From contig NW_008705595.1 in NCBI RefSeq assembly GCF_000186865.1, positions 71,882-131,149 of the forward strand: DNA of 59,268 bases, read 5' to 3'. A program made the translations under genes and the position numbers. The stretch comes from Aureococcus anophagefferens (lineage: Eukaryota; Sar; Pelagophyceae; Pelagomonadales; Pelagomonadaceae). The notes beneath the pieces were generated by a model. The model was not told the DNA's origin. It was given only the letters and a program-made list of their open reading frames with translations, and made no database searches. Below, in pieces: positions 12,158 through 55,803 of the stretch (position 1 is its first letter; the number at the start of each line of letters is the position of its first letter).

Positions 12158-14476
12158 ATAAGTGATGTGCATATAAGCGACGTGCCCCCCTTAAGGTACG
12201 ACTGTGTAATCGAAGCCGCGCAGGAGCTTGGCTGGCGAATTGTGTGTGAACGCGAGAAGGATGTTACATTGCTCGACGACCCAGAGTGCGATTTTTGCAA
12301 CGTGTATTGGATAGACGTGGCCAACATTGCAGAACGGATGAGCAAGCTCCGACCATGGCAGCGAATCAATCACTTTCCTGGGATGAGTAATATTGCTCGC
12401 AAGAATCGGTTAGCGCAGAATCTCGAGAAAATGCGCCGCGAGTACCCAAAGGAGTACAGCTTCTACCCCCGAACATGGGTTCTGCCTTTGGAACTTGCTG
12501 ACTTTCGAGCCCAATTTGATTCTACTGGGCGATCTTCACGGTTTTATATTGTCAAGCCAGACTCCGGGTGTCAAGGTCGTGGAATTTTTCTAACTCAAAA
12601 TTTTGATAGCATTTCGCCATTAGAACAAGTCGTTGCCCAACATTACATACGGAAGCCGTTCTTGATTGATGGATTTAAGTTTGACTTGCGCTTGTATGTA
12701 CTCATCACTAGCTGCAAACCTCTTCGCATGTATTTGTTTCACGATGGACTTGTCAGGTTGTGTACTGAAGAATATTTAAAACCAAATGCAGAGAACGTAG
12801 CGATGCGCTGCATGCACCTGACTAATTACGCGATCAATAAGCACAACGAAAACTTTCAGAGCAATGAAAATGTAGACGCGGGCGATGTTGGTTCGAAGCG
12901 CTCTTTGCGATGGTTCATGGATTACATTGCTGGTGAAAAAGGTCAGGTCAAGGCTGATTCTCTTTGGCGCCGGATGGGCACCATGTCTGTAAAGGTGATT
13001 ATTTCAATTCTACCAACATTGGTTCGCGAATATGAGTCAACTTTTTTCAGAGGGGCAGGTGGCTTGGAACGATGTGCCGCAGAGCCGAAGCGACCCAGCT
13101 GTGATCAAGGCAGTACAAAATCAGATGCACCGGCCGTATACGAAGAAACTCTCAAGGGAAGCAAATTGGCTCGTCGACGGGTGGTCGAAGGATCTCGATG
13201 TTTTGAGGTTCTTGGTGTCGACATTATTGTCGACCATGCTTTAAAGCCATGGCTCGTGGAAGTTAATCATCTTCCGTCTTTTGCTACTGACTCACCACTA
13301 GACTTGGATATAAAGTCGCGAGTAATTGAACAGACAATGTCCATTGTCAAAGCAAAGGCTAATGACCGCTTCGTTTATGAGGAAGCTGAACGCTCGAGGG
13401 CAGAGGAGCGACTTTATAATAGCCAGCCTACCAGTTTACCAATGGCAAATCTGGTGCAAGAAGGAGTGCTCCTCTCGCAAACCCGACGGCGGATCGAAGA
13501 TGTGCTGCGACGTCATGCACCAGAGAAATTGGTAAAAGTAAGTGCTCTTCTACAGAAGTATGTGGGGCGCGAAGACAAACTTGTGAGACTCGTTGAGCGC
13601 AAGTACCTCACAAACAGTACAACAAGCGTGTCCATTCCACCCACAAATAGCGCGGAGCAGGGTCATTTCGGTAGATCAACACCCAGCGCGCATTCAGATG
13701 ATGGTGATGATGTTGATGGATCTCAAGGCAAACCATGGTCCACCCGTGTAGGTGGCAAACGGCCACCCCTCAATCAACCTAACGAAGACGCAACCGACAG
13801 TGACATTGAACTCGAAGATCAACTGTTAGTAGATTTCGATAGAATATATCCTGTACCGAGTGAAATTCGCAAGCGCAATCTTCAAATTCCAGATTATAAG
13901 GCTCTGACTCAGTTCGTATTTGCACAAGATGAAAAGCGGATCAAGCGTCTCTCATGTCCCTTGAGGCAAAACCGTGGTTCTGCACTAGACTTTGCCGAGT
14001 CTCTTCCGCCCCTCAATGATAGTATGAAGGATACAAAAGATGGGCGAATCCCCTGGGGTGATCCATTTCGGCGCCATGGTGAAGCGCAACTTGGAAAATC
14101 GTTTTCTCTTGCCGAACGAAAGCCCCTTCCGATGCCCGGTCAAAAGCAGGCGGCTGCGGCTGATCGATTGACTCGTGGGTTCTCTTCCCGGCAGCATACT
14201 TCAGCGCCGAGCTCGCTCGGACATCTTCCAGACGATACTGACATGTGCCAGATTGGTGACTACACTCAAAAGGTGGCCAACACTGTTGCACATGCGAAAG
14301 AATGGCGTCGCAGAATGGACGATGTGCGAAATCGCCGAAATCATGGCCAGGTTGCCCTCCAGCCAAAGACCTTCATCTTCGCGCAAACTAATTCGCCAGG
14401 CTATGCCTGTCTGGCAACTCCTGCTGTGAGCGCACAGCAGCAGAAGGTCGGTGTCCGTGCATATTTGCCAGCATAG
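12158..14476 (+). CDS. Tubulin-tyrosine ligase-like polyglutamylase, TTLL6/TTLL13 type
   Basis: An enzyme that adds glutamate side chains to tubulin, usually in axonemes. The open frame encodes about 772 residues without introns. The TTL catalytic domain fills roughly residues 15-430: RINHFPGMSNIARKNRLAQN, FYPRTWVLP, the ATP-grasp loop KPDSGCQGRGIF, FDLRLYVLITS, HLTNYAINKHNENF, and GVDIIVDHALKPWLVEVNHLPSF. The FPGM...RK and INKHNENF signatures fit the TTLL4/5/6/13 polyglutamylase group better than glycylases. An insertion of about 50 polar residues sits after VREYESTF (about 13040-13190). The C-terminal 330 residues are disordered apart from a helical stretch near 13450-13620. There is no ATG near the start; an in-frame stop lies just upstream at 12152, so a short first exon is missing from my model. 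Confidence 0.93.
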   Translation: MSDVHISDVPPLRYDCVIEAAQELGWRIVCEREKDVTLLDDPECDFCNVYWIDVANIAERMSKLRPWQRINHFPGMSNIARKNRLAQNLEKMRREYPKEYSFYPRTWVLPLELADFRAQFDSTGRSSRFYIVKPDSGCQGRGIFLTQNFDSISPLEQVVAQHYIRKPFLIDGFKFDLRLYVLITSCKPLRMYLFHDGLVRLCTEEYLKPNAENVAMRCMHLTNYAINKHNENFQSNENVDAGDVGSKRSLRWFMDYIAGEKGQVKADSLWRRMGTMSVKVIISILPTLVREYESTFFRGAGGLERCAAEPKRPSCDQGSTKSDAPAVYEETLKGSKLARRRVVEGSRCFEVLGVDIIVDHALKPWLVEVNHLPSFATDSPLDLDIKSRVIEQTMSIVKAKANDRFVYEEAERSRAEERLYNSQPTSLPMANLVQEGVLLSQTRRRIEDVLRRHAPEKLVKVSALLQKYVGREDKLVRLVERKYLTNSTTSVSIPPTNSAEQGHFGRSTPSAHSDDGDDVDGSQGKPWSTRVGGKRPPLNQPNEDATDSDIELEDQLLVDFDRIYPVPSEIRKRNLQIPDYKALTQFVFAQDEKRIKRLSCPLRQNRGSALDFAESLPPLNDSMKDTKDGRIPWGDPFRRHGEAQLGKSFSLAERKPLPMPGQKQAAAADRLTRGFSSRQHTSAPSSLGHLPDDTDMCQIGDYTQKVANTVAHAKEWRRRMDDVRNRRNHGQVALQPKTFIFAQTNSPGYACLATPAVSAQQQKVGVRAYLPA

Positions 14477-31554: not shown

Positions 31555-34500
31555 ATGAAAGATGACGATGTGGAGTCGGTGGCGTACGCGTCCGCGTTAT
31601 ATTGGGCGTGTGAAGATGGTACCTGGTGCCAACTGAGAGGTACCAAGTGGCGCTGCTTGCGGGTCGCTCCTAGCGGCCTAGTTCACTCCGCCGCCCCTGA
31701 CGCACGTGATGCGAGTTGGAGGCCTTGGACTCGTCTCATCGACACGTCAGCACATCCGCAAGGAACAGTGTTTGAGGTTAGATCTTCATCACCATTTCAG
31801 AAAGTATGTCACTCAGGTATGTAACATGGTTTTCGGAGGCAACAACAAATATAGCATTCAGCGCGGTGGACGTGCCTGCGTTGGACTCGCATGATGGACG
31901 TGATGGCGAACAAGTGGCATACGAGGCGGTGAAAGCAGGCGAGGAGGTTGAGGCTCAGCCCTCAGAACAACTGACTCGTTCGGAGCTGCTGCGAGCAGTG
32001 CTTACGTGCTGTGTCGAACTGGAAGTATGCCTCGGTACTCTCCTGGCATCTCCAATGCGAATGTACGCACACGCAGCAACAGGGCTCGAGCAAGCCGTCG
32101 TATGCCATGCCTGTGCTCGGAGTGCTGTCTGTTACACTTGTACAGCGCTGGATGCCACAGATGAATCCTTGAAACATCGATTTCTGGAGTTCGCACCGGC
32201 ACTAGTTGTCGCTTCTCTGGATGCTCCGAGTGGACCGATCCATGAAATGGCGGCCTCACGTGCGACTCGTCTCTTCGGATCGAAGCAACGCTACGAGATA
32301 GCGCATGGCGATGCGCGGACATGGGCAGCTTCTGCTCCGCAGTACTTGAGTCCTCTGGCTGTTGGAGATGCGGTTGCCTTGATTGTGGTATTCACGTCAG
32401 GGTCAACGGGGAAACCCAAAGGCCTCGTACACGGGCACGGTGGCTATGGGAGTTGTGTTGCACGCTCAATGTCATATGTTTTTGATGCACGCGCAGGCGC
32501 TGACGTCTTCCTGACGCTGGCGACATTTGCGTGGATCACTGGGCAAAGTTACATGCTCTATGGGCCCGTACTTGCACGATGTAAGAGTCTGCTCGTCGAG
32601 GGCTCGCCCCTTGGTGCTGACGGGCTACGATGGGCACGTATCGCAAAGGCGCGTCGTGCGACGATCCTCAAGTGTGCTTCAGCATTCGTGCGCCACGCCA
32701 TGGGCAACCAAGTACGACGAGCGGCCGTTGAGGCGTTGGACTTACCGAACACTTCATTGCGATTGGGCACCTTTTGTGCAGAACCTGTGTCAGCTGAGGT
32801 GCAAGGATGGGCATCATCTCGAATAGTCGCTACGTTTCTGAATTCATACTGGGCCACCGAGCACGGATCCATTGTTTTGAGCCGTGATCCGAGTGGAAAC
32901 TTTCAGCCCGATACCAGATGTTGGCCAGTGCCTTGGGTGCGGGCCTCGCTGCTGCAGCTTGATGATGATGAGCTGGGTGATATTGTCCTTGATGCACCAT
33001 ACGCAGGCCTCGCCAGAACCGTCTTCGGAGACACGGCAGCGTATGGCAAGCCCCACTGGCGTGGTGATCTTGCACGCTTCGAGGCGGCCTATTTTCCCCC
33101 TCGTGCATCTGGGGATGGTTTTGGATTTGTGCAGGGAGACGCTGCGCGCGAGGCTGACGGCGCTTTCACATTCCACGGGCGCCGTGACGAGGTCATAAAT
33201 GTGATGGGTGTCCGGTTGGGACTCGAAGAGCTCGAAAAAGTAGCATGGTCTGCCTCAGATGGAATCCTGCATGATCTGGCTATAGTTGGCGCACCTGATT
33301 CTTTGAAAGGCCAGGTACCTATTGGATGGGTAGTCCTCTCTGAGGGCTTCAAAATAGACTATGACATCCTTGCAATCTGGCGGAAAGCCCTCTTTGATAT
33401 CATCGGTTCCCATGCAGAACCGAGCGCGATTGTTGCTGTTACTGCTCTTCCGAAGACAATCACAGGCAAGACCCAACGAGGGCTGCTTCAAGCAGCACTA
33501 CGCGGTGACGAAGCTTTGCCACCAGCAGCGGCAGCTCGCGTTGTGCGTAACGTCGATGCGTACGAAGATTGCTACGCCGCAGCCCAACGCTGGCGCGCCC
33601 ATAAAGCAACATCAATTGTTGTGCCTCTTGCGGGAATCACGAACTATTGGGCACGTATGCGCTTCGACGGCCACAATGTTAGTGGATCTCCTTTGCTTCC
33701 AGCGACCGGTTGGCTCTGCATCCTTTCCGATGCTAGCTCGAGCTCGCCCGTCGGGCTTCACAAGGTACAGCTTCTACGTGGTGTGCGTGATGCGCATCAA
33801 TCTCTGTTATTGCGCAACGGGTTGATGAGCACGGTAGAAGATGCCGACGGACTCCCCATTGTCAAGTGCGAGGTCCGAGAGTCTGCATTGGTCCCCCTTC
33901 CTGATCTAGATACAGAAGGCTGGGTCGACGGTGCTGCCGCCATATTCGAGGATTTGGATGGGCTGAAGCACTACCGACGTTGCACTGCCGTCGCGCTGAG
34001 ATATAGCGGGCCTTTTAAATGTGTTGATCGTGTAGCTTGGCGCGATGATTGGAGTTTCCGAGCGTTTGTGACTGTAACAACAGCGCCAGCACTACTCGAT
34101 GCGGCTCTGCAGGTCGTTTGCTCTCTCGATGCGTTTGGTCGGGGTGCGACTTTTATTCCGTTTTACATTGGGTGCTTTGAGGCAGTCCCGCATCTTAATC
34201 TCGCGAGGCCTGCGTATTGTTTAATCGTGGGAGAAATCACTGCGCGTGAGGAGGCACGGCTAGAATGCGATGCCGCCTTTTACTCTGTCGATGGTGCTGC
34301 CACATCCACGCTCTTGAGCGAACCGGATCCTACTAGACTCATTGCGACGCTCAAAGGAGTCAAGTTTGCCAAGGTCGACAATAAAAGGCGACTTCGGCGA
34401 TCTCGGGAGATGAAACCCGCGAAGGTAGAAGTGGGCGGCTTGCCAATAGCACCGGGCGATGTAAGCCCGAGCGATAACGCATCGCTACTGCGGAATGTCA

Positions 34501-35696
34501 TCAGCCTAAGTTCAGACCTCGTTGGAGGCACGATTGACGCAGAAAAGTCTCTCTTCGAAAATGGGCTACACTCCCTTCGTGCTGTCGAGCTTATTGGCAA
34601 GGTCAATCAAGCCTACAGCGTTACCATGGGCGTCGCCCAACTTGCATCCGGAGATGACAGTTTTTCTGCAATTGTTGTCGCTCTCCGTGCAGCGATCGAT
34701 GCACGCAATTCTGCTGGCACAGAAACGATCCGTTTTGCCCACGTAGACCATGAAGCGTTGCAGCACATTGTGAATTCAAGACTAACAGGCGCCGAGGCGC
34801 CGGGCATCGCATCTCAGCGCCAGAGGTCCGCACTTGCGGAAGCAGCACGGGGTGTGATCTACATGATCCGTCGAGGTTTTTTCAAGTATCTGCGCATTCA
34901 GCACCGCGATGGCCTTTTTCGCTTCTTATTAAACACGCCCACGGTGATCGACCTAGAGCGCACAGTTGTCGTGCCCGGTACTCGTGTTCATTTCCAACAA
35001 ACCGACTATAATCGCCACTTTACAGTCCGTGAGATCATCCGTGACTCGGAACGTGGCTTCTACAATCTCGTTCACGAAACGGGTCTCGCACATCTCGAAC
35101 ACTACTTCAGAGTGATGTTTTTTGCTAGCCGTCTGGAAGCGCGTTTCGATGCCGAGCTTCTCGAAGGGGAAGCTTATGAAATGAGATGCAAAGTTGCGCA
35201 AATTACTGGCCCGCTTGTCGATGCCGAAGTTGCATTTTACTCACTGCGCAAGCTTCACGCCCATGCATTCATCGTCACTTGGCGGCTTATGCTTGTTGTA
35301 GACCCGGGGAAGAAAGTCATGTACGATTTTGAGCGCGGTGGTGCCTTCAGCAGCGGCAACTCAACCACCACCGTCGCGCTGGAGAAAATTCCGGATGTGC
35401 CACATGTACTAAATGAAACGCCCAAAAAGCCGGAGACTTGGTCATTGACTCGCCGTGGCAAATTCATCACCTCGGGGTCTATTGCCTTCTTTGGCATTCT
35501 GATCGGCCTCTATGCGATGGCTCCGGTTGCTGTTCGCATCTTAATTCCCCTGCCGCTTGTAGCCGCGGACGTTCTCCAGGATCTGAAACCGAGGGAAGCC
35601 ATCATCATCTTTGCTGCTGTTGGATTTTGGCTCAGGACTCACCCAGGGCGCAAGCCGCTTGATGGCCCCGTCGATATGCTTTTGCCTCATGGTTGA
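31555..35696 (+). CDS. Hybrid adenylation - PKS dehydratase - acyl carrier - hot-dog thioesterase - membrane protein
   Basis: About 1,356 residues from exons 31555-31745 and 31817-35696 (71-nt intron; donor tentative). Domains in order: (1) residues about 1-600, AMP-forming acyl-CoA synthetase of the acetyl/acetoacetyl-CoA type, with the P-loop FTSGSTGKPKGLVH (about 255), SYMLYGPVL, NSYWATEHGS, WRGDLARF, HGRRDEVINVMGVRL and the catalytic lysine motif PKTITGKTQRG; (2) about 660-900, a PKS-type double hot-dog dehydratase with its His motif HNVSGSPLLP (HxxxGxxxxP) and Asp motif DAALQ (DxxxQ), both intact; (3) about 940-1030, an acyl carrier with GLHSLRAVEL, where the usual Asp before the phosphopantetheine Ser is His; (4) about 1080-1220, a single hot-dog thioesterase with TDYNRHF; (5) one or two membrane helices at about 1280-1335. 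There is no ketosynthase, acyltransferase or ketoreductase. Likely it activates a carboxylic acid, holds it on the carrier, dehydrates a hydroxyacyl chain and releases it at a membrane. Substrate unknown. Confidence 0.85.
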
Positions 35697-40930: not shown

Positions 40931-43900
40931 TCAGTCAAGTTTTGATTCTCGACGCGGATCGCGGCCAGTCGTCGCTAGAATGCCGCGGCGGTCTGCAGTC
41001 TTGTAGACGGGACACTTGTAGCCCGGCGGATGATCGATATCAACAGACTTCTTCGGTTGGAACCAGATGAGCGGTGCTGGCGAATATAGCACCTTGGGCT
41101 CCGATTCTGCCAGTAGGTTGGTCTGGTGACACCAGCGAGCACCTTCAAAGAAAAGCCCGTAGCAGTAGACGCCGAGGCTTGGCGGATTGGAGTACTTCGG
41201 TTTCGGTAGCATCTCGAATTGAAGCCCTATAGCATCAATTGGAATTGTTTTACTACGCGCATAGTTTTGTTTTGATGCAGTCATGAAGGCGTGCTGGAAA
41301 AAGAAGGCAGAAAGCCAATAAGTTGGAGGTGGTTTGTCGTGGACCCAGTTGCCAGCAAAGGACAGTCGAGCAAGAAGGTCCTGAACATAGCCCGCGAGCG
41401 GTTTGAAGGATGGATAGGATTTGGACTTCCATAGGATGGGAATCGTGCCGTATATCAAGGACTCGCCGAGTTTCTCGAGAGCCGAGGACATCACCACAAT
41501 TCCCTTAACGGCTTTAAGGACTGACCTCAGTGAGGATTTAATGAGATTTGTCAGATTGTTAAATTTCGCGAGCTCCTGACAGAGCACAGTATTCATAGAC
41601 TCAGACCATGTGACTGGGTATTTGACCTGGGCCGCTTCCATGTCGAAAGCGTCTGGGAGTTTGTGTAAGATATCGTTAGCCGTGGATAATATTTGGTCAT
41701 CCGTCGAGGTACCCTCGCCGCCACCTTCACCACCTCCCTCGGTCAGAAGGATAGCCGTAAAAAGGTCACTAGTTTCTTTCGTATCCTTTGTTATCATCGC
41801 GTTCTCGTGAAAACCAAAAATCTCTGGTTCTGCAACCAAAGGTAGATCGCTTATGACACTGAGGAATTCCGGGTGTGTAGACGCGCCGGGCATCCTATAA
41901 ATGCCACTATCGCTCAGGTTGGCACCAGTTTCCAGAACTTCGTCACAAAAAAAACGATCAAGAATGCAGTTGAGTGTCCTACGGTCCTTGCCGTCGGTAA
42001 CACGGCCCCCGTAATTGCACTCGCCGATGCAGTACTTGAGTGCCTTAAAGGGGACCTCTTCGTTCTCATCGAGAAACATAGCAAGTTGCTGCATTGAAAT
42101 GAGCAGATCAGACTCGTTAAATCCATAGGCAATGTTCCACCCAAGAGGGCCAAACAATCGCCGCTCTTGAAGAAGCGCATGAAATACACACAGGGCATAA
42201 GAGAGCTTTCGGAAAGGCCCCGGCTTATTGCACGTGTCAAGATAGTTGGCGTCTGAAAGAGGTGCGTTTGAATACGAGCCAATTAGGTTGGCCCTTAGCC
42301 CTTTGGGAGGTTCGATGGTCATTTTGATTCCATTCTGCAGAACCGAGACAGGGAAGATCGGTGACGGGTATGTCGTGCACCACAGTCGGAAGTCCTTGTC
42401 CGTCGAATCGGGCTTGAGTGATTCGCAGATCTGCTCGAGACGTGACATGAAGCTTGGCGCCAAGTGACCTACGAAAGCGCGGGTTCGAGGTGTTCGATGG
42501 GACCAAGATTCATGGAAAGATTCACTCGGGAGGGGAGAACCGTGCGAAACGCCGCTCGACGCACAGTTTTGCAAAACAACCCAGGATCCATCTTTTGTCG
42601 AATTTGCAATCAGCTTGTCAGCAAGCGGTCCTTGACCTTGGCCCAAAGACATGGGCGATACACGACGGTTCAGCTGTTGCGCCGCCTGGAGGACTGCACC
42701 CATCGGGTCCGACCCAGGTGAGAGCACAAAGACCAAGGGAGTCGTGCAAACGGATTCGTCGTAGCATGCCTGGAGGTCAAATGGAGGCGGACGCACAAAA
42801 ATTTCTCCCATGGTCTCGATGACAAATTTCTGAACTGCAAGAACTACTTTGTCCGGGCGGATGCACCTTAGCGCGCACAGTCTACGCAATCCCTTAAGCT
42901 TGGCATCCCATTGGCCAGGAAGGGGCATCTCGTGTGGACTAACCGAATCGTATATTGCTTGCCAAGACCCTCGTTGAATTTTGAACTTATCACGAAGGTC
43001 CGAGAAGGCGGGCAACTCCGACAAAAGACAGACCTCATTCCATTGCTTCTGCAAGAGCCAATCGGGACAGGGGTTTGCATGCGGATTATCTAGGGCGACA
43101 CCGCCAGTCAACAAAAATAGCCATTCGGCGGAATCAAAGCTGCCTCCTCTCTTCGATGCAAGTTTGCGAATCGTCAGAACGAAAGAAAACAGCAACTTGT
43201 CTTTCTCTAGAAGAGATCGACACACATTCTTGTAAAGAGAATATTCGAAATGAATGCTCAGATTTCTGAGGCGAGATGCGATGTCGTTCGAGGGCTCTGA
43301 CTTCTGGATGCTGGACACAAACAGGTTGATGAACCACGGCAGCGAGTACGAATAGGTCGGCTCGATATTATTTAAATCGGAGATACAAAAGAACAAAACT
43401 TGCGTGTCATACGCGACAGACCGATAGCCTGATCTGACTTCATCAATTTCCTTCTCTGTCTTCTCTGCGACCGCTTGCTTCTGCTTGATCTCGTCTGAGG
43501 TCACTTTAGATTTACCCAGGGTAGTAATAGCCTTCTCGTCTTCGAGTATGTTCCCTTCCGAGCTCAGAATTTCCAGGATTTGATCTTCTATGTCTTTTAG
43601 CTTTCTCGCGTTTGACGCACCTTCGAGGACGAGCTCGTTCTTTCTTTTCTCTAAATCTGCTCGTTCTTGGGAGACTACAACGCCCAATAACTGGTCAGAT
43701 AAGCCAACGGGAGTAATCATAAAATTGAGTAGAGTCACCTTCACGGAAGTCTCTGGTAAGTAATGTGGATTCCGCAATTTCGTTGTCATGTAGAAACGGA
43801 ACTGGTCGCTGTATTGGACCGTGGAATCGCCGAGTCGTATCATGTCGAGACCTCCCGACTTGAAGACCTGCTTCAGGAGAAGAGGCTCGAGAGTCGGGTC

Positions 43901-46900
43901 TAGCTCCTCGCCAACGTTTTCAAGTAAGACAGGCTGTCCAAAATTGATTGCATTTTCGAGCGTGCGCATGTAGTCGTCTGTCAGCTTGAGGACATGAACA
44001 CCATTTTGCTTCTCCATATTTCGCACCCATTTATTTGCCTGACCTTGTGGATCGATCATGAGGGGCCACCTTCTAGAGTTAAAGATGATGATTCCATTGT
44101 CAATTGAAAAATTGTCCGTTGGAAGGCCTTCAATATTCCATTGGCGGATTTGCACTGGATTCCCAAGTGTACCCGCGAGTGTCGGGGTCCCAGAGCAGGG
44201 AATTGACTGCGCGAGGCAGTGTGCAACCCACTCCTGCATTTGGGAGTCACGGTAGGTCGAAGTGAAAGGACCCAAATAAGCCATGAGCCCAGCAGACACC
44301 AAAACATCACCGGTAAGATTCTCATATGCGGCTCCAAGGGCACGAGTAAATCCGGTCCATTTCAGCTTCTCGCCACCCAAATCGCCGATTAGCTGTTTTG
44401 CCCTGACTAGCTTTTTCCCACAGAGGTCGACCTGGGCGGCAAGCTCTTCCTTTTTGCGTTTGCTTTGAGCTAGTTTGGCCTGCAGTGCCGATAAGTTGTC
44501 TTGAGTCTGCTGCAGGCTCGCCTTTTTTTTATTGAGAGCGGCCATGGTGACTGCCAGCGACTTTTGAGCCAACTCTAGCGCTTCCTTTTTGGGGCCGACG
44601 ACCTTGGCAACGCGGTCGTACGTATCCATCGCATAGCACCACTTGCACAGGCCTGCCGCTGCTGACGAAGCCTTTTTCGCATTTTCAGGTGTGAAAGCTG
44701 GATCTTGTTTGTACTTGGTGCGAATTTCCTTCATGACCTTGATAGGGATGTTGTCCTTGTCGTAGTTTTTTAACTTAGGAATGAATCCCTTGTCATTTAG
44801 CATCTTCTGCGAAGTTGGCCAGAAGTCCCAAACCTTTTTCGTCGGGTCATCAGGGTCTGGAACCTTTACTGGCTTCTCACCAAGCATGACACAGATGGCC
44901 TCAGCAACCAGCTTGACAGTAGCCGGCGGCTTGGCCAGCTTGCGGACTTCATCGATATCTGCTGGCTTGATAGTGTCCAGCGCCTTCAAGGCATCATTGA
45001 GGGCCGGAATTGCCTCGTCCAGGTCTGCTTGCACCTCGTCGACTTGCTTCTGGACTTTGTCCGCCTCCTTCTGGGCAACGGCCGCTTCCTTTCCAACGGT
45101 TTCCTCCTCTTTTCGTACACCAGGGAGCTTGTCTTCAATCTCCGACATCAGAGCATCAGTATCCTTCTGTGATTGCCTGAGGACTGGCTGCAGATCAGTC
45201 AGTTCCTTTTGCATCCCGCCGACTGATTCTTCTGCGGCCGCGAGCTGCTCGAGTCCATTCTGATAGCGATCTTTTTCCTTCTTGACCGCCAAACGGCGTT
45301 TGCCAAGCGCGGCTTTGAATGCCAATATCAATTCGAGGTAGCTAGTTGGAGTGACGTAATTGATCCGACCCGCTTTGGCCTGGAACCTCGCGGAAAGAGC
45401 GCGCACGGCATCATGAAAATGCTGACAAGTCGAAGTGATCGCTGGTCGTATCGACTCTTCGAGCTCAACGTCACTTAAAAACTTCTTTGCGACGGCAACG
45501 AGCGCATCACCAGGCCAGGCTGTAAACCAGTCTATTGCACCTAAAAGAAGAAGTCCATGACGCTTTTTAAAAGACGCTGTGTGCCCGACAATTTCCTTGG
45601 ATGGACGGGAGCGACGCCTTTGTGACGACACCATTCTCGCGACGAACGCGGCGAACGATAACGAAGCCCGATGGCATCTGGGCGCACCAGGTATGTCCAG
45701 CGTACCACACTTTGCGAATATCTTTCCCAGCACGCAACATGGGCTGACACTGTTTTCCATCAAAGAAGCGCACCTCCCAGCACGAGCAGCTTGAAGAAGT
45801 CTCGAGCGTTTCATCTGGATTCTGATACAAGTTGGCACCATGATACCAACAGTGTGCCTTTCTTGGTAAGAAGTGTGCACTGTATCCGGCATGGAACATC
45901 AGGTGCATAAGTTGATCGCGAAGACGAATAGATGATGTCAAAATTGCGGGTTGTCGTGTTGCTTCATTAGGTCCATCAGCACGTTGGCGACCTAAAATGA
46001 TGGAACGAGCGCATTTTTTGTTTAGATGGAGCGCCCACCAGAAGAGCCCTTTCGTGGATCTCCCCTCGCGAGCAGGCTGTTCCATGGCCTGCCAGATCTG
46101 CACGTGAGCTCGACCGGGTCTACGAAACGGGCCACGCAGTGGTCTCATCCCTTGATCCGACAGCGCAGAGGCAAGCGGCGACCTCGAAGCCAAGATACTT
46201 GGATGTTCATGACCGATGACGTCCTCCAACCCAGTTATCTGATCGTGTGAGGATAGGCCCTCGAAGAACGTGTTTGCGCTGCTGTGGACTTTCTTCCGCC
46301 TGAATCGTGCCATGCCGCCGGAGCTTGCGGCGCTTTTTGAAGGGGCAAAGTCGTTGATGTCTGTGCGCACGAAAGCCTTTCGATTGACATAGTCCTCCAG
46401 CGAGCATTGAAATGATAGCCCCTCGCGTTCAAAAGACGACGGTTTGAGACAGACAGACATGGCCTTTTTATTACTTATGGCAGCAGCCAGGTTCAGGGTG
46501 CTAGGCGACCCGTCCTTTTCTGTATCTGAACTAAGCCGAGCGTCGGATGTTTCAGCCAAGGACGGTCGTGGTTCACTGCAGCTGGAGTCATTCAGCACGG
46601 TGTTGAGCTCATTGGGAAAGTGAGACCCCGACGGGCATCCTGCAAATAGCGACAGTGACATCCACGGCGGATAAGGCTGCGGTCCATGTATCTGCGCAGG
46701 TTCGGAGGTCAGACTCGGAACCGACTGCGACCCCTTCCGGCTGTCGTCCTTCTGTGCTTTTATTGCATCCCCATGCAAAACAACTTGCTCGCGAGTTGCG
46801 CGCTTGAGATAATACTCTGCAGAGAATAAATCAACCCAATTAAGATCTACGATCGAGACCACCAAAGTTTTCTCATCCTCAATTAGAAATGCGTGCTCGA

Positions 46901-49900
46901 CTTGGCATCTGTCAATTACGCTTTCAACCCATGCTTTGTCATGGATCTTGGCTTTGACGACAATTGCGCACGGCTCGTCATTCCTATCCAAGTCCAGGTC
47001 GCCATTGCCTAGCCAAAACCCGTAAAATAAAAAGAATGCCTCTATTTGCAGAGGTTCGCGGAGCTCAAGCCTGGAGAGTTGCTCAGAGATGGCCCGTGTC
47101 AAGGTGGACTCGAGCGGAACCTCACGGCCAGCTTCTGCGTTCGATTTGAAGTTTAGGAGGTCTGCGTGCACGCAGTCGCTGGCCTTCACCTTGCGGAAGC
47201 CATCGTCATGGAAGTATTGATCATCAACCCTGCCATTGAATTCCTCGCAGTCCCCTTCGATGCTGCCCAGTTGGGCGTACATGTCATGGTTCCCAGTCGC
47301 AAGGATAGAAAACATCCCCGTTCCAAACGCAGATACGTGCTCGGCCACGTCGGCAGCACTATCCTGCTTAAGTTCTGGCGGCGAGTGGGAGCAAGTTTCT
47401 TGTTTACTGGCATGTTTGCTGACATGACTAAAACCGCTCAAGTCTGACGCGGCAGCCCATCGGTGGACGTCGGCCGAAGCAGTAAACTCAACCAATTCTT
47501 GCTCGCACGGTGGGTTGATGACGATCTTCACAGGAGATTCGTAGACGATTTGATCGCTCACCGAATTATAGGAAGCAAAAAGAAGCTCACCATCGTCATC
47601 TCTCCAATCAACGACGTCCGCGAGTGACTTGAACCCATGATTTGTCAGCAGCTCGTGATCAGGCGGGAAGCTACGTGAGGTGAAAGGTTGCTACTGTGAG
47701 TCTCTCAGGAGCGCGCGAGCGCGTGCACGCGGCAGTGATGGGGGCGGGGGGTTGGCGACGCACCAACAATTAATGAGAGATGGGAAGAGCCTAAGACGGT
47801 CCCTGAAGGCATCTCCGATGGGAGAGAAGGCGAGAATTATATGCAACCGCTGGCGGACTCTGGAAACAAAGTATGAATAGAGCTGCAGCGGCGTCATGCG
47901 ACCGGCCTCCTTGTTCCCGAATACTTCTTTGGCAAACGTTCGAACTTTTTCGCAGATTGCGACCTTCTCATCGTTTGCAAATAGGTTCGGTACCTCACCA
48001 GAATTAAGGATATTATTGATATCCTCGACGAAAGCTTCTAACTTGATCTGCGTGTCACTGAACAGGAACACGACGGGCTTCTCGCCAGTCCCCGCGTCTC
48101 TCAGGAGCGCTTTCATATCTTCACGCCAATCGACCATGCTATAGTTCTTAGAAATTTCTATCCGATTCAGCTTGTAGCCTGCGACCTCCGTAGCTAGAAT
48201 AGAGACCGACTGGCGTCCAGAGCCCCCAACTCCGACTAGAAGTGCGTTGCCTCCCGGCATCTTCAGAACCCTCGAAATTCGAGACACATGCTCGATTGCG
48301 AACATGAACATCACAAGGTCCATGGGCTTCCTGGATACCGCATTGAAATCGACTAAATATTGCTCGATCGTGAATTGCAACGCCGGGATGTCCCGAACTT
48401 CCGCATATGGCCGGAATTCTTCATCCGGATGAGCCATGTAATTTCCGAAGAAAAGTCGTCTCAGCTCGCCGTATCCGACCGCGGAATTATGGCAGGCCTC
48501 GGCACGAAGATGTCCGAATTCATCCTCGAAGTCTAGCTCAAATACCTCATTGACCATGCGCCTGGCGTGCGCAACAAACCAATTGCGATCTGCTTCGTCT
48601 GTCAAGCGGTCGGCGAATACTCGCAGGGCCTCGTGGGTCCATAGCCTCGCGAGGGTAGATCGGTCCACTACATCTTTCGGTTCGCAGAGAAGGACACCGC
48701 TTATAACTCTCGAAAAATCCCGCAAATTGAACGTGTAGTGCGACTTAGATGGCGTTGGCAATAGATTTAACATGGCTTCGCGGTAAGTTTTGAGCGTGGC
48801 CTCAACTACACAGTTCCGGGCATTCCTCACATCCCCAGGGAATTGATCATCAATTGTATGGTCCACGATAGTCCGGAAAATCAGCGTCAGCGTGTCATCG
48901 TCAAATTCATTGAAGGACAAGCAGCCAAAGTGCCCCAAGAATCGCGGTGTCGTGGGATTGCGCCCGCCGCCAGGTGGGCCCATGGCACACATCATTACGG
49001 TGTCAACAACTTTGACCCATGACTTTTCTTTAAGGTCGTAATAGCCACCAGAGTCCACTAATTGCCTTAGCAGCTCGATCGGCGGTTGCGCTCCGTATGT
49101 CTCGACCTCTGGCATGTTGAGATCATCAATCATGATGATTGCTTGCTTGCCAATGGGCGGACCAAACACGCCCTTCCTTCGCTTGGACAGCTGGCCATCA
49201 ATGATCTCCTGCGTCATGTTAGCAGAAGTTTTGGCACTGAACCCCAGGCTGAGGGGCTTGAACTTGTCCGGGCTTAACTCCTTTGCAAGGCACTTCGCCG
49301 CGCACACGGACTTGCCTGTCCCCGTTGGCCCAACAATGAGAGGTCGGTATCCTCGGGGCAGCATGGTAGGCAGTAAGAAGGAGATCTGTGCAGTACACAC
49401 GGTTGGAACTAAAATCTCGGAGAATGGTGTCTTCGGGGCTATTGTGAAATCCCCATCTAGTGTTTCCAGCCAGCTCAACCAGCGCCCATTATCCTGTGGC
49501 CTGAAACAATAATCATAGATCTCACCCTCTTCGGGAATATTCAGCTCAAAACGCAACCCCATTTTCGGTGGTGGCGTCCATTTGCGCATTGCCAGAAGTG
49601 TTTGCACCCCACCATAAGGAGCTTGCTCGAGACAGGCGACATCCTTAATCAGCGCACGCAAAAATTCAGAGAAGCGCGCCCGGCCTCCTCCTCCAACAGT
49701 CACACCCACGCTCCAGGTTAGCGCAAAGAGAAAACCGCATTCGATCAATTTCATTCGAGGTGCTTCTAAATCAGCCTTAGAATTTGGAATCGAATCTCTG
49801 AGAAAACAAGTTAACAAGTTCAGAAGGCTCTTGAGCAGCCCACTGTCCACCGTCGGCGAGACCTCCTTCAGGGATCGCCGTACAAGGCACATGCAAGGTT

Positions 49901-52900
49901 CGACAAGCCAGTGGAAGAGAACGCGAAGCCTTTCCACCTCTTCGTCGCTCAAAGCAAAGTCGTCTGTGTGGCACTCTTCTCCGCGTGCTGGTTCCTCCAA
50001 AGTTGCAGTTGCCTCGCTACCACTTCCCTGTCCAGCTTCTCCCCCCTCAGTAGGTTTAGACGGGACCTTGACAGCTTTCCACATCTTCAGCCATGAATCC
50101 AAAATTGGCTGCCATCCGAGTTGCTCAGGCTCCATATAGACCATGCCGCAGCGAGATACCGTCGCTGGACTTGCAACTAAGAGATCCATAGGTTCAAAAA
50201 TCATGGACATAACATCTGACATCGCAATGATCTCGCCAGACATCAGACAGAGCTTCTTATTATCATCAAGTACGGTGTTCATGTTTTCAATCCAGATTGC
50301 ATCCACCGGGCCATCTAGTAAAACCCACTTCCGGTCATCAACGCCCCCAACCTTTGACGTTGCTGCGTTCCTGTAGTTGATTGCGAGGACGCCATCCGTC
50401 CATTCGGTCGAAACGGGATCGAATTGCCCGTAGAGTTGTCCCATGGTCACAGATTTGGGATTCATGATGAATGGTACCACGTTCGTCCAGCGGGAATCGT
50501 CGGGGTACTTGGAATGTAGCTCCCCGAGCGAATCTGCTAGGACCTTCCAGGCACTGGTCTTCCCCGAGAATGGCATACCAACAATCATAAACCCGTGTCG
50601 TACCACCATCATATCGTAAATTTGGACAACCTTGTCCCAGAAATAAGGCGTTGGCTGCAGATTACGATCCTTGCAGCTGCTTTCGAATGCCCCGCGCATC
50701 GCCTCGCGATCTGGGACCGGCATTTTGACCCCAGGATAGAGATCTGAGGTGATGCCTTCGAACAGTGGTACGTCTGGAGACAGAAACTTTGGGAGATTCA
50801 CATCGATGATAGATCGCAAAACGAGCACATCCTCGGGGAGATCGCCTTCGGCGCGCTTCAGATTCCCCGCGGCGCGGAGCACGGCCATGACCGCGCGCAT
50901 GCCGTAGTCGTAGTGAGACTGTGACGAGAGCTGCTCGGAGCAAAGCTTGTAGGTCGTGACGATCTTGACAGCCATCGCCTTGGCATCAGTATACCCCATT
51001 GAGTAGAGCAAGATTTCACCGATCATCGCGTAGTCTGGTACCATCATCGCAACGGTTCTAAAAAGAACTTTGAGATTGTCAGGGAGCTCCGCACGACCTG
51101 CATACCCTGGATTCATGGTGATGAAGGGACAGCAAGTCATCTTCAGAGGTAAGTCTGTTCCCTCAAACAAGAACCTTTCAGCCCTACGCGCCTTGGCTTG
51201 CTGGATCGTGAGCACCTGCTGCGCAATCACCGAGAGCACCTCGAGCTGGATCCGATTAAACCTAAGCACGGATGGACATATCATTCTAGCTGCTTTGCTA
51301 GTCGAGGCACGGAGCTCGACTCGTCGAAGCATGCCCAAGCGCCCGACGCAGCTAGCCCTTTGAAGAATTTTCCCATGGCTTTATAATCCAAGCCATCCTG
51401 AGAAAGTTCTGTAATGCACGCACGCACAAGCGCGATACGGGAGCGAGGGATGGGGGGTGACCTACCGAGCAGTTCGTGACGACGCACTGAATGGCAATAG
51501 CCTTGCCCAAGTCCTTCGTTGTCTCCGTCTTACCCGTCCCTGCGGGCCCCTCTGGCGCACCCCCTAGGTTGAGGTGGATGGCACCCATGAGAGTACGGTA
51601 GCATCGATCTGTCAAAGGTGTAATCACAAGGCGGCCACAATTGCCAATGTACTCGTACGCATAAAGAATCATGGCATTGATCATCCTACAGGCGATAGAA
51701 CCGGGCTCACCGCACTGTGCTGAGGCCCCACCGGCCTCGTGATAGTATCGGAGATGAGCCTGCCAGTCGAAATCCGTGACTGCGGTGATATCAGCGCCAG
51801 CGAGCTCTGCGGTGATATCACGATTGTGGACATCCATGACGACCAATGATCCTAGTGTTTTGCGGAGCATCTTTGGAATATCTCCTCGCACTGATTTGAC
51901 AACGTCGAGGAGCTCATCTCTTCGCTGATCAAAGAGAGCTTCCATCGCACCACCGCCAGTGTTTATTGCATCCTCCACAGACGTGACCCACATTATTTGG
52001 TTTACTGTAAGTACTGTCTGCCCCTGCCAATTTTTTAGCCATTGGGGCCGCTGCGTCTGTGCAAAATCTACCACGGCCTCGTCAATGTGGAACGCCAACG
52101 ACTTCTTCATGATTGATTCGACCTCGACGAGCCACTTCTCTACATTTCCACCGCTGTCTCGGGGGTTGATAGGGCGGTGATGGCAGGGTCCATAAGCAAA
52201 TTCCAGGCGCTCCCCCTTACCAGCAGGTCCATCAAAACAAGATAGAATGTCTAGCTTGTCCGTGAACTCAAGATTCACAATACCTGCCCGGGGGCGGAGC
52301 GGGGGTGGGTCGCGGAATGTCGATCAAGGAGACTCTGGATATGGACCGTCGAAGCACTTCTTCAGGTGCGGTTGGACCCGCGTGGGGTCCTTGGTCTCCG
52401 CGAGTATTTCCAGCAGCTCATCATTACTCAGGAAGAAAAATCGTGGAAACGCCAGTCGCTTGGTTTCTAGGTAATCGTTTAGACCCTTTTGAATTCTGTC
52501 CAAGCGAGCGTTCGCGTCAACGAGTGACTCTCGGAGGCCAGAACGCCTCGCAACTTGCAAAACACCCGGCTCTGCAACAGTGGTCGCCATGGAATCCATC
52601 CAAACTTGATTCACATTCTTAAAGAGGCGCCCCTCAGTGGGAATTTGCTTCATAATGTCGTCAGAAGAAAAAATTGGCTCAAGATAGAGCCATGCAGCCT
52701 GGACCTTGAGCCAATTGTCAATGATGTCCTGAAGTTCTATAAGCATGGATTCCCAGGCGGTGGTTCGCTTGAGAAAGGGCTTCACAAATCTGCTACCGCG
52801 CATCGCCTGGGTCCTCACGATTTGGTCGTCCAGTTCCTGTTGAATCTCATCAATACCAACCAGTATATATGATGTGCGCCATTCCTTCGTGTTGAAGGCC

Positions 52901-55803
52901 AGAGTCTCCCACGCGACCTCCATTTTGACCAGGGCCTTTTCGAGCTGAGATTCCCCCGATGCAGTGCCGCCGATCTCTGAGACGAGCTCCGCATGATCGG
53001 CAATACCCCATTTGATGAAGTCATCCAAGTTGAAAGACTTCGACGGGTCGTAGCTCTTACCCATTGCCTTGAAAAGGCGTTCCCAATGCCTGGGAAGCAT
53101 TGCTGGATTGCCCAGGTCCATCACGAGAGGCATTGTTGGCTTGAAAACTTCGACGACTTCCATTAGCTTCTCCGTGACGGGCGAGTTAATCTTCCGGTTA
53201 AGGGAAAATATGTCCGCCGCAAAGAGCTGCATCTTTTGGTCCACTTCTTCAGCGTTAAGCTTCGTGAGGTCGCCCAAAATCCAACTATCATGCTGTGCAT
53301 GCCAGTCAGCGACAGATGCCCATAGCTTGTCAACCAATTTTAGTTGGTCAGTTGCCTTCTTGAGTTGAGGGAATTCGTCCGCATGATATCCAAACAACTC
53401 CTTATAGCCGGCATAAGTGCGCGCCAGAGAGGTCAGTTGCTCGAGGCGATGGTGCATCATAGCTAGATCTTTCCTCACAACAGGTATTTCTGGATCTTCG
53501 AAGTGTGCAACATCGATAAAATTTCCCGCCATGATAGCCGAAGTAAATTCAGAGAGATTGGAATTCAACGTTACAATATCTTTATCAAGTTGCTCAGACT
53601 GGGCCGTGAGCTCGCCTTCCTTGAGAGTCTTGGCGGCCATCAGCTGCTCGCTGTATTGGGTGGCGTAGGAGTGCATCTCATCCAACGCTACCAAGTCATC
53701 TGGTGGTATCTTCACATCATTCATTTGAAGCAGAGCATACATTTGATCGACGGGACCTTTAATACGACGCATCTCCCTCTCGTCGTACTCGGCTGTCTGC
53801 TCCACGTAAGTTGCATATTCCTTCAAGTTCTGTGGAGTTGCTTCCAAGATCTTAACTCGTCGAGTGAGAGTTTTCAGCACTTCTGCACACTGAACACGGG
53901 CCTCATCTCGGATGATACCTTTGAGAAGGTCTTGCTTGGCTTCAATGAAGGGTGACAAAGTCTGTTTGAGCTGCCGTGATGTGACTTCAATAGTCCCAAT
54001 GCTTTCCCGTGTTCGCATCTTGTCGAGCTCCTTTTGCCAGACGCAAACCTGCTCGAATTCCTTACGAGATTCAGTGAATGATCGCGTCACTGCGCGGTAC
54101 TCATCTGGGTCAAACGCCTTAGACTCTTCATAGACGGGCCTGATGGGATCAAAGGCGGTACTATTGTGCATCGCTTGTCCAAAGTCATCGCGAAACTTGT
54201 CGTGCAATGAATCCATGAACCTGTCAAAGAGCGGCAAACTGCGAATGACTTCGTCAAACTTGGAAGCAAAAGCCGCAGATGTGCAGTGCTCTGCACAGCC
54301 ACGCGCATCCAAGACCCTTGGAATACGAGACACCAAGGCGATGATTTCGTCCGCAATCCGATGTGACATTCCAAAGAAGTCATCCAAAGTGGGCGTGAAG
54401 ATTGTACCAGTCTCGTCAAAGCCAACCATGACTTCGAAGAGTCCCACCTTGTGTTGCGTGTCCATGAAGTCCGCAAGAAGTTCGCCATTGAACGATTGTA
54501 AGACATGCGCGACGACGGTTTCAACCATCATGCAATCTGCAAGCCTCACGAAATCGCTCAAAAGACCCCGATCCTCAGCAGCGCGTGCCGCTAGGCGCTT
54601 TCTGGCCCGCCTCTCCTCTACAGCCGCATTCATGCTCCTAGCCTTGACGTTTTTCCCCTCTAGCTTGGCGGCCATCAGGGCATCGAGCCGCTTCCGAGGG
54701 TCCTCACTTTCGGCCTTGTTCTTGTCCAGGGTCTGCACGGTTTCACAAGCCTTACTTGCGATTTCAACGACTCGTTTCATCGCGGCCTCACACATCGCCA
54801 TGGCTTCTTTCCTAGTGACAATTTGCTGTTCCATGAAGACCTCCAGGGGGTCTGACTGAACTCTAGGTCTAGGCGTCATGATGAAGCTCGCTTTCTTCAG
54901 CTCAAAGATCTCTCGTTTCAGCTCAATCATGGGCTGACAAAATGACGCGCGTGCCAAGAAGAGACGAGCTGTGAGTCTCTGCCGTTGCTGCGCAAAAAGG
55001 TGCTGACGCACGTTAGATCGCCACTGCCGAAACATCTTGAAAGGAATGAAATACTTGAAGTAAGAAATGCTTCTGAGCAGATTAAAAAACGTGCTATGTC
55101 GCACCCATTCATTCATCGAGATACACTCTGTCGCATTGGTCCCCTTGCGCAGAACGCAATGCACAAGCCCCGATCGAGACATGGTAAAATACTCGCCCCG
55201 GGCAACCGCAATACCGGATGGAACCACATCCAATGTATAAGGTTTGAACTCCATGCCCGTATCTGCAGGCACCAGATGCACAAACTTGACGCGAGAGTCT
55301 TTCGTGGCAGCTGTGAAGTAGTTCACTGCATCTTCACCAGTCTCAAGACCTAATTGTGCAATCTTCAAGTCCTCTTCATCCAAGGCTGCAGATGGCTGAA
55401 CTGGTGCGTTTGCCAACCTGATTGCCGCATAATTAGGATTTTCACCCGTCTCGTTGGCTGCTGCCACATCCAACAATGCTTGGACAGTGCTTGAGCGGCG
55501 CCGCATCATCTGAGGCTCACTTGGCGTTAGGTTTGGCAGCGACTGTGCTAACAAGGGCCTTAGGCGTGCCCGCAAGGTGAGCGGTTCCGAGCCATCAGCC
55601 GGTAGCGCCCGTGCTGCCTGGCTTGGAGTATTCAAACCCCCATCCACGATGCCCGGACTAGATCTCGTCCGGTCCAGCGGCGAGATGCGCCGCGGTTTAC
55701 TACGCCGCGTGCTCGTCACCGTGCGCAGGTCATATTGGTAAACAGTTCTCGGGTCCAGAGAGAATACCAGCCGGTCATCCAAAACGAAGTCGTGAGAAGT
55801 CAT
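40931..55803 (-). CDS. Axonemal dynein heavy chain (single-headed inner-arm type, DNAH3/7/12-like) carrying an intein
   Basis: The motor subunit that slides axonemal microtubules. Seven exons from ATG 55803: 52347-55803, 51466-52283, 51321-51397, 47764-51261, 45590-47670, 42565-45540 and 40931-42468. Introns are 63, 68, 59, 93, 49 and 96 nt and every phase closes, giving 4,814 residues; without the 694-residue intein it is 4,120, close to DNAH7. Residues 1 to about 1350 are tail and linker. P-loops: AAA1 GPAGTGKTET (about 1400), with ACFDEFNRIQLEVLS; AAA2 GMPFSGKTSAW (about 1675); AAA3 GPTGTGKSVC (about 2095); AAA4 GVGGSGRQS (about 2460). The stalk coiled coils and the microtubule-binding region follow (KKEKDRYQNGLEQL to AQSKRKKEEL), then AAA5 (NSRRWPLMIDPQGQANKW), AAA6 and the C-terminal domain (GVYCYGLFFEGARW, CPVYKTADRRGILATTG). 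The final residues differ from the usual TTGHSTNFV ending. DNAH3/7/12 likeness rests on wording such as EGNILEDEKAI. Confidence 0.96.
45541..45589 (-). other. Spliceosomal intron in the Cys+1 codon after the intein
   Basis: 49 nt, donor GTCGGG, acceptor TTCTTCTTTTAG. It splits the C-extein Cys+1 codon as T|GT (phase 1), one base after the intein's terminal Asn codon. If retained, the frame stops six codons later. Confidence 0.85.
45591..47765 (-). mobile_element. Intein with LAGLIDADG-type homing-endonuclease region, inside the dynein heavy chain
   Basis: A 694-residue protein-splicing element (precursor residues about 2617-3310) in frame between LINC and CAIDWFTAWP of dynein. Splicing blocks: A, Cys1 in CFPPDHELLTNHGFKSLADV; B, ATGNHDMYAQ with its conserved His (about 128); F, TWCAQMPSGFVIVRR (about 660-674); G, SIQGN ending in Asn694, followed by Cys+1 of the C-extein. 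The residue before Asn is Gly, not the common His. Between B and F lies an endonuclease region: FFLFYGFWLGNGDLDLDRN (about 213-231, a LAGLIDADG helix), then FWWALHLNKKCARSIILGRQ (about 545) and SSIRLRDQLMHLMFHAGYSA (about 580-600). About 200 residues in the middle (330-540) are Ser/Pro-rich and look disordered. The remaining dynein reads LINCCAIDWF, matching the family's uninterrupted form. The second LAGLIDADG helix is not obvious, so nuclease activity is uncertain; splicing residues are intact except for the Gly. Confidence 0.92.
47671..47763 (-). other. Spliceosomal intron in the intein's Cys1 codon
   Basis: 93 nt, donor GTGCGT, acceptor CACCTCACGTAG. It splits the codon of intein Cys1 as TG|C (phase 2). 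Without removal the dynein frame stops soon after LINCW, so splicing is required for the motor C-terminal half. Confidence 0.85.

Follow-up and report, generated by a model that had tools for sequence, protein, structure and literature searches.

Can an intein interrupt the heavy chain of a molecular motor? The question is raised by a 59,268-nucleotide (nt) stretch of Aureococcus anophagefferens DNA (assembly GCF_000186865.1, contig NW_008705595.1, positions 71,882 to 131,149; hereafter the window), in which an earlier note placed a full-length intein inside an axonemal dynein heavy chain gene. Profile, pairwise, structural and gene-model evidence all speak for such an intein. The location, 45591-47765, was borne out, on the minus strand. 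We put the probability at roughly 0.87 that the insert is a LAGLIDADG-type intein in AAA4 of an inner-arm axonemal dynein, likely self-excising after translation, with the two dynein halves joined via Cys+1.

The insert and its dynein host

The earlier note described a 694-codon in-frame insert. The minus strand of 45591-47765, translated straight through, instead runs to 725 codons and contains a single in-frame TAG, so the unspliced stretch is not open. When a 93-nt GT-AG intron (intron A) is removed, the TAG disappears and exactly 694 codons remain, from Cys1 to Asn. Removal of a second GT-AG intron, of 49 nt (intron B), joins that Asn to the Cys of CAIDWF, and the spliced reading runs ...RLRLFPSLINC, then 694 amino acids (aa; CFPPDHELL...SIQGN), then CAIDWFTAWPGDAL.... 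With the gene’s other introns (52346-52284, 51465-51398 and 51320-51262) removed as well, the six exons of the dynein gene form an uninterrupted frame of 4,846 codons that ends in a single stop; minus the intein, the frame encodes 4,152 aa. Three of the five introns, including intron B, start with GTC, so the GTCGGG donor of intron B is in character for this gene. A stop-free run of 693 codons has a chance probability of about 3.4e-11 at the window’s stop frequency.

The host had been named an axonemal inner-arm dynein heavy chain, and the gene model, domain order and PDB sequence matches agree. Across five open stretches, Pfam domains occur in the order DHC_N2, AAA_6, AAA_7, AAA_8, MT stalk, AAA_9, Dynein_heavy, AAA_lid_11 and Dynein_C. 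The 500 aa around the joint match 69 distinct PDB sequences at E <=1e-50. Among the best 60 of these 69, four 8glv chains come first, followed by DNAH12, DNAH7 and DNAH3, above DNAH1 and DNAH6 (one row among the leading dynein matches carries an unrelated molecule name). We take the DNAH3/7/12 names to denote the single-headed inner-arm dynein group, and the ranking supports a predicted placement of the host there.

The insert breaks the AAA_8 match (D4 region, 259 profile positions). In the Pfam scan of open stretches, the part ahead of the insert covers positions 1-181 and the part behind it 184-257; in a search of the organism’s own genome the corresponding ranges are 1-183 and 181-257. The insert therefore cuts AAA4, and the proposal that the motor halves are divided after AAA4 does not hold. 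The proposed split of LINC/CAIDWF is right as to the joint, with the correction that the Cys codons at both junctions are themselves split by introns.

The AAA_8 profile has 26 matches in this genome. Comparison of dyneins across the junction, using a pattern scan of the assembly, turned up seven dynein genes that are uninterrupted at the site and share one site length (the pattern missed others). The insert is thus in frame, at a conserved host site, and absent from relatives, as is expected of an intein. The nearest uninterrupted dynein, on contig C3, reads FPSLVNCCAIDWFTAWPGD at the site. Upstream it is 69.6% identical over the adjoining 349 aa and 52.8% over a further 360 aa; the downstream identities are 69.2% (315 aa) and 71.6% (1,215 aa). 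Since the same assembly thus has a dynein that lacks the intein and shares about 70% identity near the site, the cell may not depend on the intein-bearing copy alone. Separately, in a dynein heavy chain gene on C23 (L010:2023-2140) the first Cys codon of this N-C-C-x-I-D site is interrupted by an ordinary intron, and there is no intein.

Intein sequence, conserved residues and predicted fold

The suggested check against Hint and LAGLIDADG profiles was negative by direct Pfam search and positive with a hidden Markov model (HMM) built from intein relatives. Seeds for this model were two IMG/VR contigs from a scan for a block-G motif. One seed contig holds an RPB2-like gene (by Pfam) with an intein that resembles the insert at its ends and in its endonuclease, and BLASTP aligns the two at E 1e-5 over insert residues 545-674 and 0.006 over residues 1-47. 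The aligned seed inteins led to 46 loci; 38 were used, the seeds’ own two contigs among them, and 8 partial or near-duplicate loci were left out. Against the resulting HMM the insert scores 83.4 bits (E 4.9e-24 among 4,939 six-frame segments), matching in three collinear pieces (profile positions 1-45, 54-191 and 192-331 of 340). Similarity thus spans the splicing and endonuclease parts nearly end to end. The next unrelated segment reaches 8.1 bits and no shuffle out of 2,000 exceeds 3.3 bits, which, together with the length of the stop-free run, argues that the intein is not a product of chance.

The score falls only to 74.9 bits when the six relatives starting CL..DH are left out of the model, with the best single BLASTP relative (L180, E 8e-8) retained, and HHalign of the insert with the relatives gives 96.5% over residues 541-675. 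Pfam recognizes LAGLIDADG_3 in 32 of 35 relatives, Intein_splicing in 5/35 and Hom_end in 2/35. A second HMM, built from 35 mostly phage RNR inteins, ranks the insert fourth of 4,939 segments at 4.1 bits, with 1 of 2,000 shuffles scoring higher; this match is suggestive only. PHROG_10855, annotated ‘hydrolase’, matches the insert at E 0.015. Nothing usable came from PADLOC, from IMG/VR searched with the insert’s own peptides, or from tblastn against phages and plasmids, one search giving four records at E 2 to 9. One of these, an E 9 match in a Rhizobium phage, was inspected and rejected; the annotated gene there is on the other strand. In a control, the Npu DnaE intein matched 51 phage records, so the tblastn method is able to find inteins. 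In the loci returned by three pattern scans, no intein was recognized.

Blocks A (CFPPDHELLTNHGFKSLADV), B (ATGNHDMY), F (TWCAQMPSGFVIVRR) and G (IQGN then C) are all present as claimed. Alignment with 36 relatives shows that T125, H128, C662, P666, R674, G692 and N693 are kept. HMM position 1 falls on insert residue 1, placing the nucleophile Cys1 at the very edge, given the splice of intron A. The block B residues of the TxxH motif are shared by nearly all relatives (T125 in 35/36, H128 in 36/36), and the terminal Gly-Asn by all 36, although Gly-Asn is a less common intein end than His-Asn. The Asn end followed by Cys+1 is likewise seen, with the joint to AIDWF dependent on removal of intron B.

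The endonuclease-like region that had been noticed contains two LAGLIDADG motifs. The second acid, Asp565, is kept. The first is Asn222, at a position where the relatives have E in 22 cases, D in 13 and N in 1, so the pair of acids of an active LAGLIDADG endonuclease is incomplete. This pair is optional for intein membership, and mini-inteins lacking the endonuclease still count as inteins (PMC1508164; consulted in part, as were the other papers cited here). Because the first acid is Asn and about 228 residues without confident structure separate the two halves, the endonuclease is probably dead or impaired. We infer from these residues that homing may have been lost or impaired while splicing was kept.

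Has splicing been lost too, leaving a dead dynein gene or a truncated product while the intein-free homologue does the work? The missing acid, the long unstructured insertion and the homologue on C3 would suit such a history, as would a spacer between blocks F and G that is longer by 10 residues (675-678 and 682-687), which 0/36 relatives have. Yet all six exons stay open over 4,846 codons to the terminal stop, the splicing residues tested are kept, and PRP8 inteins have retained splicing after endonuclease loss (PMC1508164). We regard a non-splicing intein as unlikely.

An AlphaFold2 model built with the intein relatives predicts a Hint-plus-LAGLIDADG fold, with low confidence at residues 528-539, 609-616 and 621-625 of the second LAGLIDADG half. 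Its Foldseek matches include Hedgehog and bacterial-intein-like (BIL) Hint domains, which would fit a Hint domain that cleaves without ligating. Against this, the insert lies within a conserved core with the C-extein intact, its LAGLIDADG halves are in intein order, and its Gly-Asn/Cys end is as in the intein relatives, making cleavage alone highly improbable.

Several observations weigh against a splicing intein in this dynein. The insert has no match in Pfam (E up to 1 for the whole, up to 10 for pieces) and no direct match in NCBIfam, among PDB intein sequences or in a set of 5.8 billion proteins. The good AlphaFold2 model leans on the intein alignment (the insert alone reaches a predicted local distance difference test score, pLDDT, of 35.2), and the best Foldseek E-value is just 2.4e-3. 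Codon usage of the insert is closer to the dynein exons than other frames are, but just slightly, and that of its second half is not. The intein ends rest on predicted splice sites, and the 10 residues between blocks F and G must be counted here as well.

The insert sequence occurs once in the genome. Searches with PF14890 and PF14528 found no second intein, though these also miss the present one, so others are possible.

Junction introns and the proposed route to a whole motor

Intron A splits the Cys1 codon TG/C and intron B the Cys+1 codon T/GT. Five parses of junction A are open, one of which gives LINC-CFPPDHELL; at junction B, 8 out of 28 donor-acceptor pairs stay open, and a single one yields GN-CAIDWF. 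An alternative at junction A, 47759/47691 (LINC-WC-QPFTSRSFPPDHELL), is also open, and we preferred the parse that starts the relatives’ profile at Cys1. Intron A is single-copy in the genome, so no membership in a repeated-intron family is seen. Retention of intron A brings in an in-frame stop. With intron B retained, Cys is still read at +1, followed by a stop after RAHSVF. Skipping of the intein exon between the two intron sites causes a frameshift.

In an alternative reading, the spliceosome usually takes out the whole segment as a single long intron carrying an intein-derived endonuclease (shintron-like), so that most dynein never contains the intein. Shintrons are known from mirusviruses (PMC12768974), and GT-AG removal of 47767-45541 (2,227 nt, minus strand) is in frame, leaving LIN-C-AIDWF. 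That product is one Cys short at a site whose length is constant in the seven uninterrupted dynein genes. Six of the 18 whole-segment GT-AG pairs are open; none yields LINCCAIDWF and one yields LINCAIDWF, and there is no open whole-segment removal from the LINC-TG donor (47763). The shintron endonucleases described in the portion of PMC12768974 consulted are HNH, GIY-YIG, VSR-like and PD-(D/E)XK, whereas the insert’s is LAGLIDADG. Nor would a plain intron keep Cys1, blocks A and F, Gly-Asn and Cys+1 exactly at its edges. Whole-segment removal is, in our judgment, quite unlikely.

Under the intein reading, the two short spliceosomal introns would leave first, which would complete the Cys1 codon and link Cys+1 to the second dynein half. 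The 4,846-aa precursor would then be translated and folded. Cys1 would attack in an N-S shift, the chain would be transferred to Cys+1, and cyclisation of Asn694 would release the 4,152-aa dynein. Because the insert breaks up the AAA4 core immediately before the stalk, a chain still carrying it would probably fail to fold into a motor. The motor would likely be whole only after the intein’s self-removal, and the gene model implies that its assembly would depend on autocatalysis. The intein likely persists because its loss requires exact repair of a conserved motor site.

A further, doubtful idea is that the intein’s own exon, with introns in both nucleophile codons, forms a two-layer gate on a flagellar motor, in which RNA splicing must build Cys1 and join Cys+1 before protein splicing can occur; the intron-intein-intron unit may be what moved in. 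If this were true, retention of intron A would end translation early, while with intron B retained the intein would splice out and leave a motor truncated in AAA4. With introns in both nucleophile codons, one gene could test the interplay of RNA and protein splicing, and flagellar motility would offer an easy in vivo readout. An intein lying ahead of the stalk, inside AAA4 of a cytoskeletal motor that exceeds 4,000 residues, would broaden the set of proteins known to tolerate inteins.

Known systems and genomic surroundings

Inteins as such are familiar; what sets this one apart is the class of its host and the introns that split its junction codons. LAGLIDADG inteins in IMG/VR, including one in an RPB2-like gene (L143/L144), share with the insert the collinear blocks A, B, endonuclease, F and G and a Gly-Asn end. 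All but one extract (L165, itself incomplete) have Cys1, and their +1 residue is Cys, Ser or Thr. They differ in being about 16-23% identical to the insert, 290-373 aa long (n=38) rather than 694, and in one frame without introns; the host in L143 is RNA polymerase, not dynein. A further IMG/VR contig (L142:2427-7016, plus strand) holds a 2,769-codon frame with an RNA-polymerase-like look and, by eye, several inteins.

Set beside the insert by description alone, inteins of RPB2 and RPA2 (PMC1635734) are likewise nuclear and at conserved sites, with Cys1 and Cys+1; those of Cre RPB2 and Pno RPA2 end in Gly-Asn, and in some LAGLIDADG is degenerate. Their hosts, however, are RNA polymerase subunits, and the complete inteins tabulated there measure 354-488 aa. 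Fungal PRP8 inteins (PMC1508164) are also nuclear, have lost the endonuclease in some cases, and in several species have an intron near the site on the C-terminal side. Only this C-terminal-side intron is tabulated there, whereas both junction codons are split here, and their host is a splicing factor. Mirusvirus spliceosomal homing introns (PMC12768974) similarly frame endonuclease coding sequence with GT-AG, in contrast to a complete in-frame LAGLIDADG intein in a cellular dynein.

The portions of the intein literature consulted, which fall short of a full survey, report no introns in both junction codons. By title, no intein in a dynein appeared among the matches listed from the open-access literature, nor did any relevant title for an intein in an axonemal protein. 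The most common nuclear hosts in Table 1 of a 2018 survey of eukaryotic inteins are Prp8, VMA1, RNA polymerase subunits, ThrRS, GLT, CHS and IF2/eIF5B. No motor appears in that table, and the survey’s main text uses neither ‘dynein’ nor ‘motor protein’ (supplementary lists aside).

Table 1. Dynein gene and intein features in the window
Feature	Position	Strand	Basis
Dynein exon 1 (tail, DHC_N2)	52347..55803	-	gene model, Pfam
Dynein exon 2 (AAA1 start)	51466..52283	-	gene model, Pfam
Dynein exon 3, 77 nt	51321..51397	-	gene model
Dynein exon 4: AAA1-AAA4 to ...FPSLINC, plus TG of putative intein Cys1 codon	47764..51261	-	gene model, Pfam
Intron A, 93 nt, GTGCGT...CACGTAG, splits Cys1 codon TG/C	47671..47763	-	translation, junction parses
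Intein exon, 2,081 nt, from the third base of the Cys1 codon through the first of the Cys+1 codon	45590..47670	-	gene model
N-terminal splicing part: blocks A and B (TGNH); low-confidence loop, residues 69-117	47265..47669	-	HMM, alignment, structure model
First LAGLIDADG half (FYGFWLGNGD), acid position Asn222	46776..47057	-	HMM, alignment, structure model
Residues 299-526, insertion between endonuclease halves without confident structure	46092..46775	-	pLDDT about 30
Second LAGLIDADG half (RADG, Asp565 kept; TSSIRLRDQLMHLMFHAGYSAHF)	45783..46091	-	BLASTP, HMM, alignment, structure model
C-terminal splicing part: block F (TWCAQMPSGFVIVRR) and block G (IQGN)	45591..45782	-	HMM, alignment, structure model
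Intron B, 49 nt, GTCGGG...TTTTAG, splits Cys+1 codon T/GT	45541..45589	-	junction parses
Dynein exon 6: remainder of Cys+1 and AIDWF, then the MT stalk, further AAA modules, C-terminal domain and stop	40931..45540	-	gene model, Pfam

Sampled stretches of the assembly fall into two GC regimes, about 48-56% (C35, C44, C46, C57) versus 62-75% (C1-C5, C10, C23, C30); C26 and C70 each contain both. Possible causes are islands of low GC, chimeric contigs and the presence of a second eukaryote in the assembly. Introner-like introns of about 200 nt occur on C3 (L040:6681-6880) and at L045, L012, L042 and L013, with seven long copies of about 80-88% identity at four other loci of the genome; none was found in the window or in 14 further loci (L035 and L036 of these GC-rich). 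Contig C70, of mixed GC, has two copies.

The two GC regimes, and the absence from the window and the 14 further stretches of introns seen in GC-rich loci, would fit a contig that joins unrelated DNA or belongs to another organism. On the other side, the GC of the intein (0.527) is close to that of the dynein exons (0.505-0.519), the joint is base-exact on both sides, and 44500-48800 contains no N. The union of intein and dynein does not depend on whether the assembly holds two eukaryotes, and were contig C35 from a co-sequenced eukaryote, the species alone would change. An artefact thus seems very improbable.

Elsewhere in the window, a 1,296-aa frame resembling a nonribosomal peptide synthetase (NRPS), with AMP-binding, carrier (PP-binding) and thioesterase-like domains, lies at 31806-35696 on the plus strand. 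A tubulin-tyrosine ligase family protein of 769 aa is encoded at 12167-14476, also on the plus strand, placing a microtubule-related gene near the dynein.

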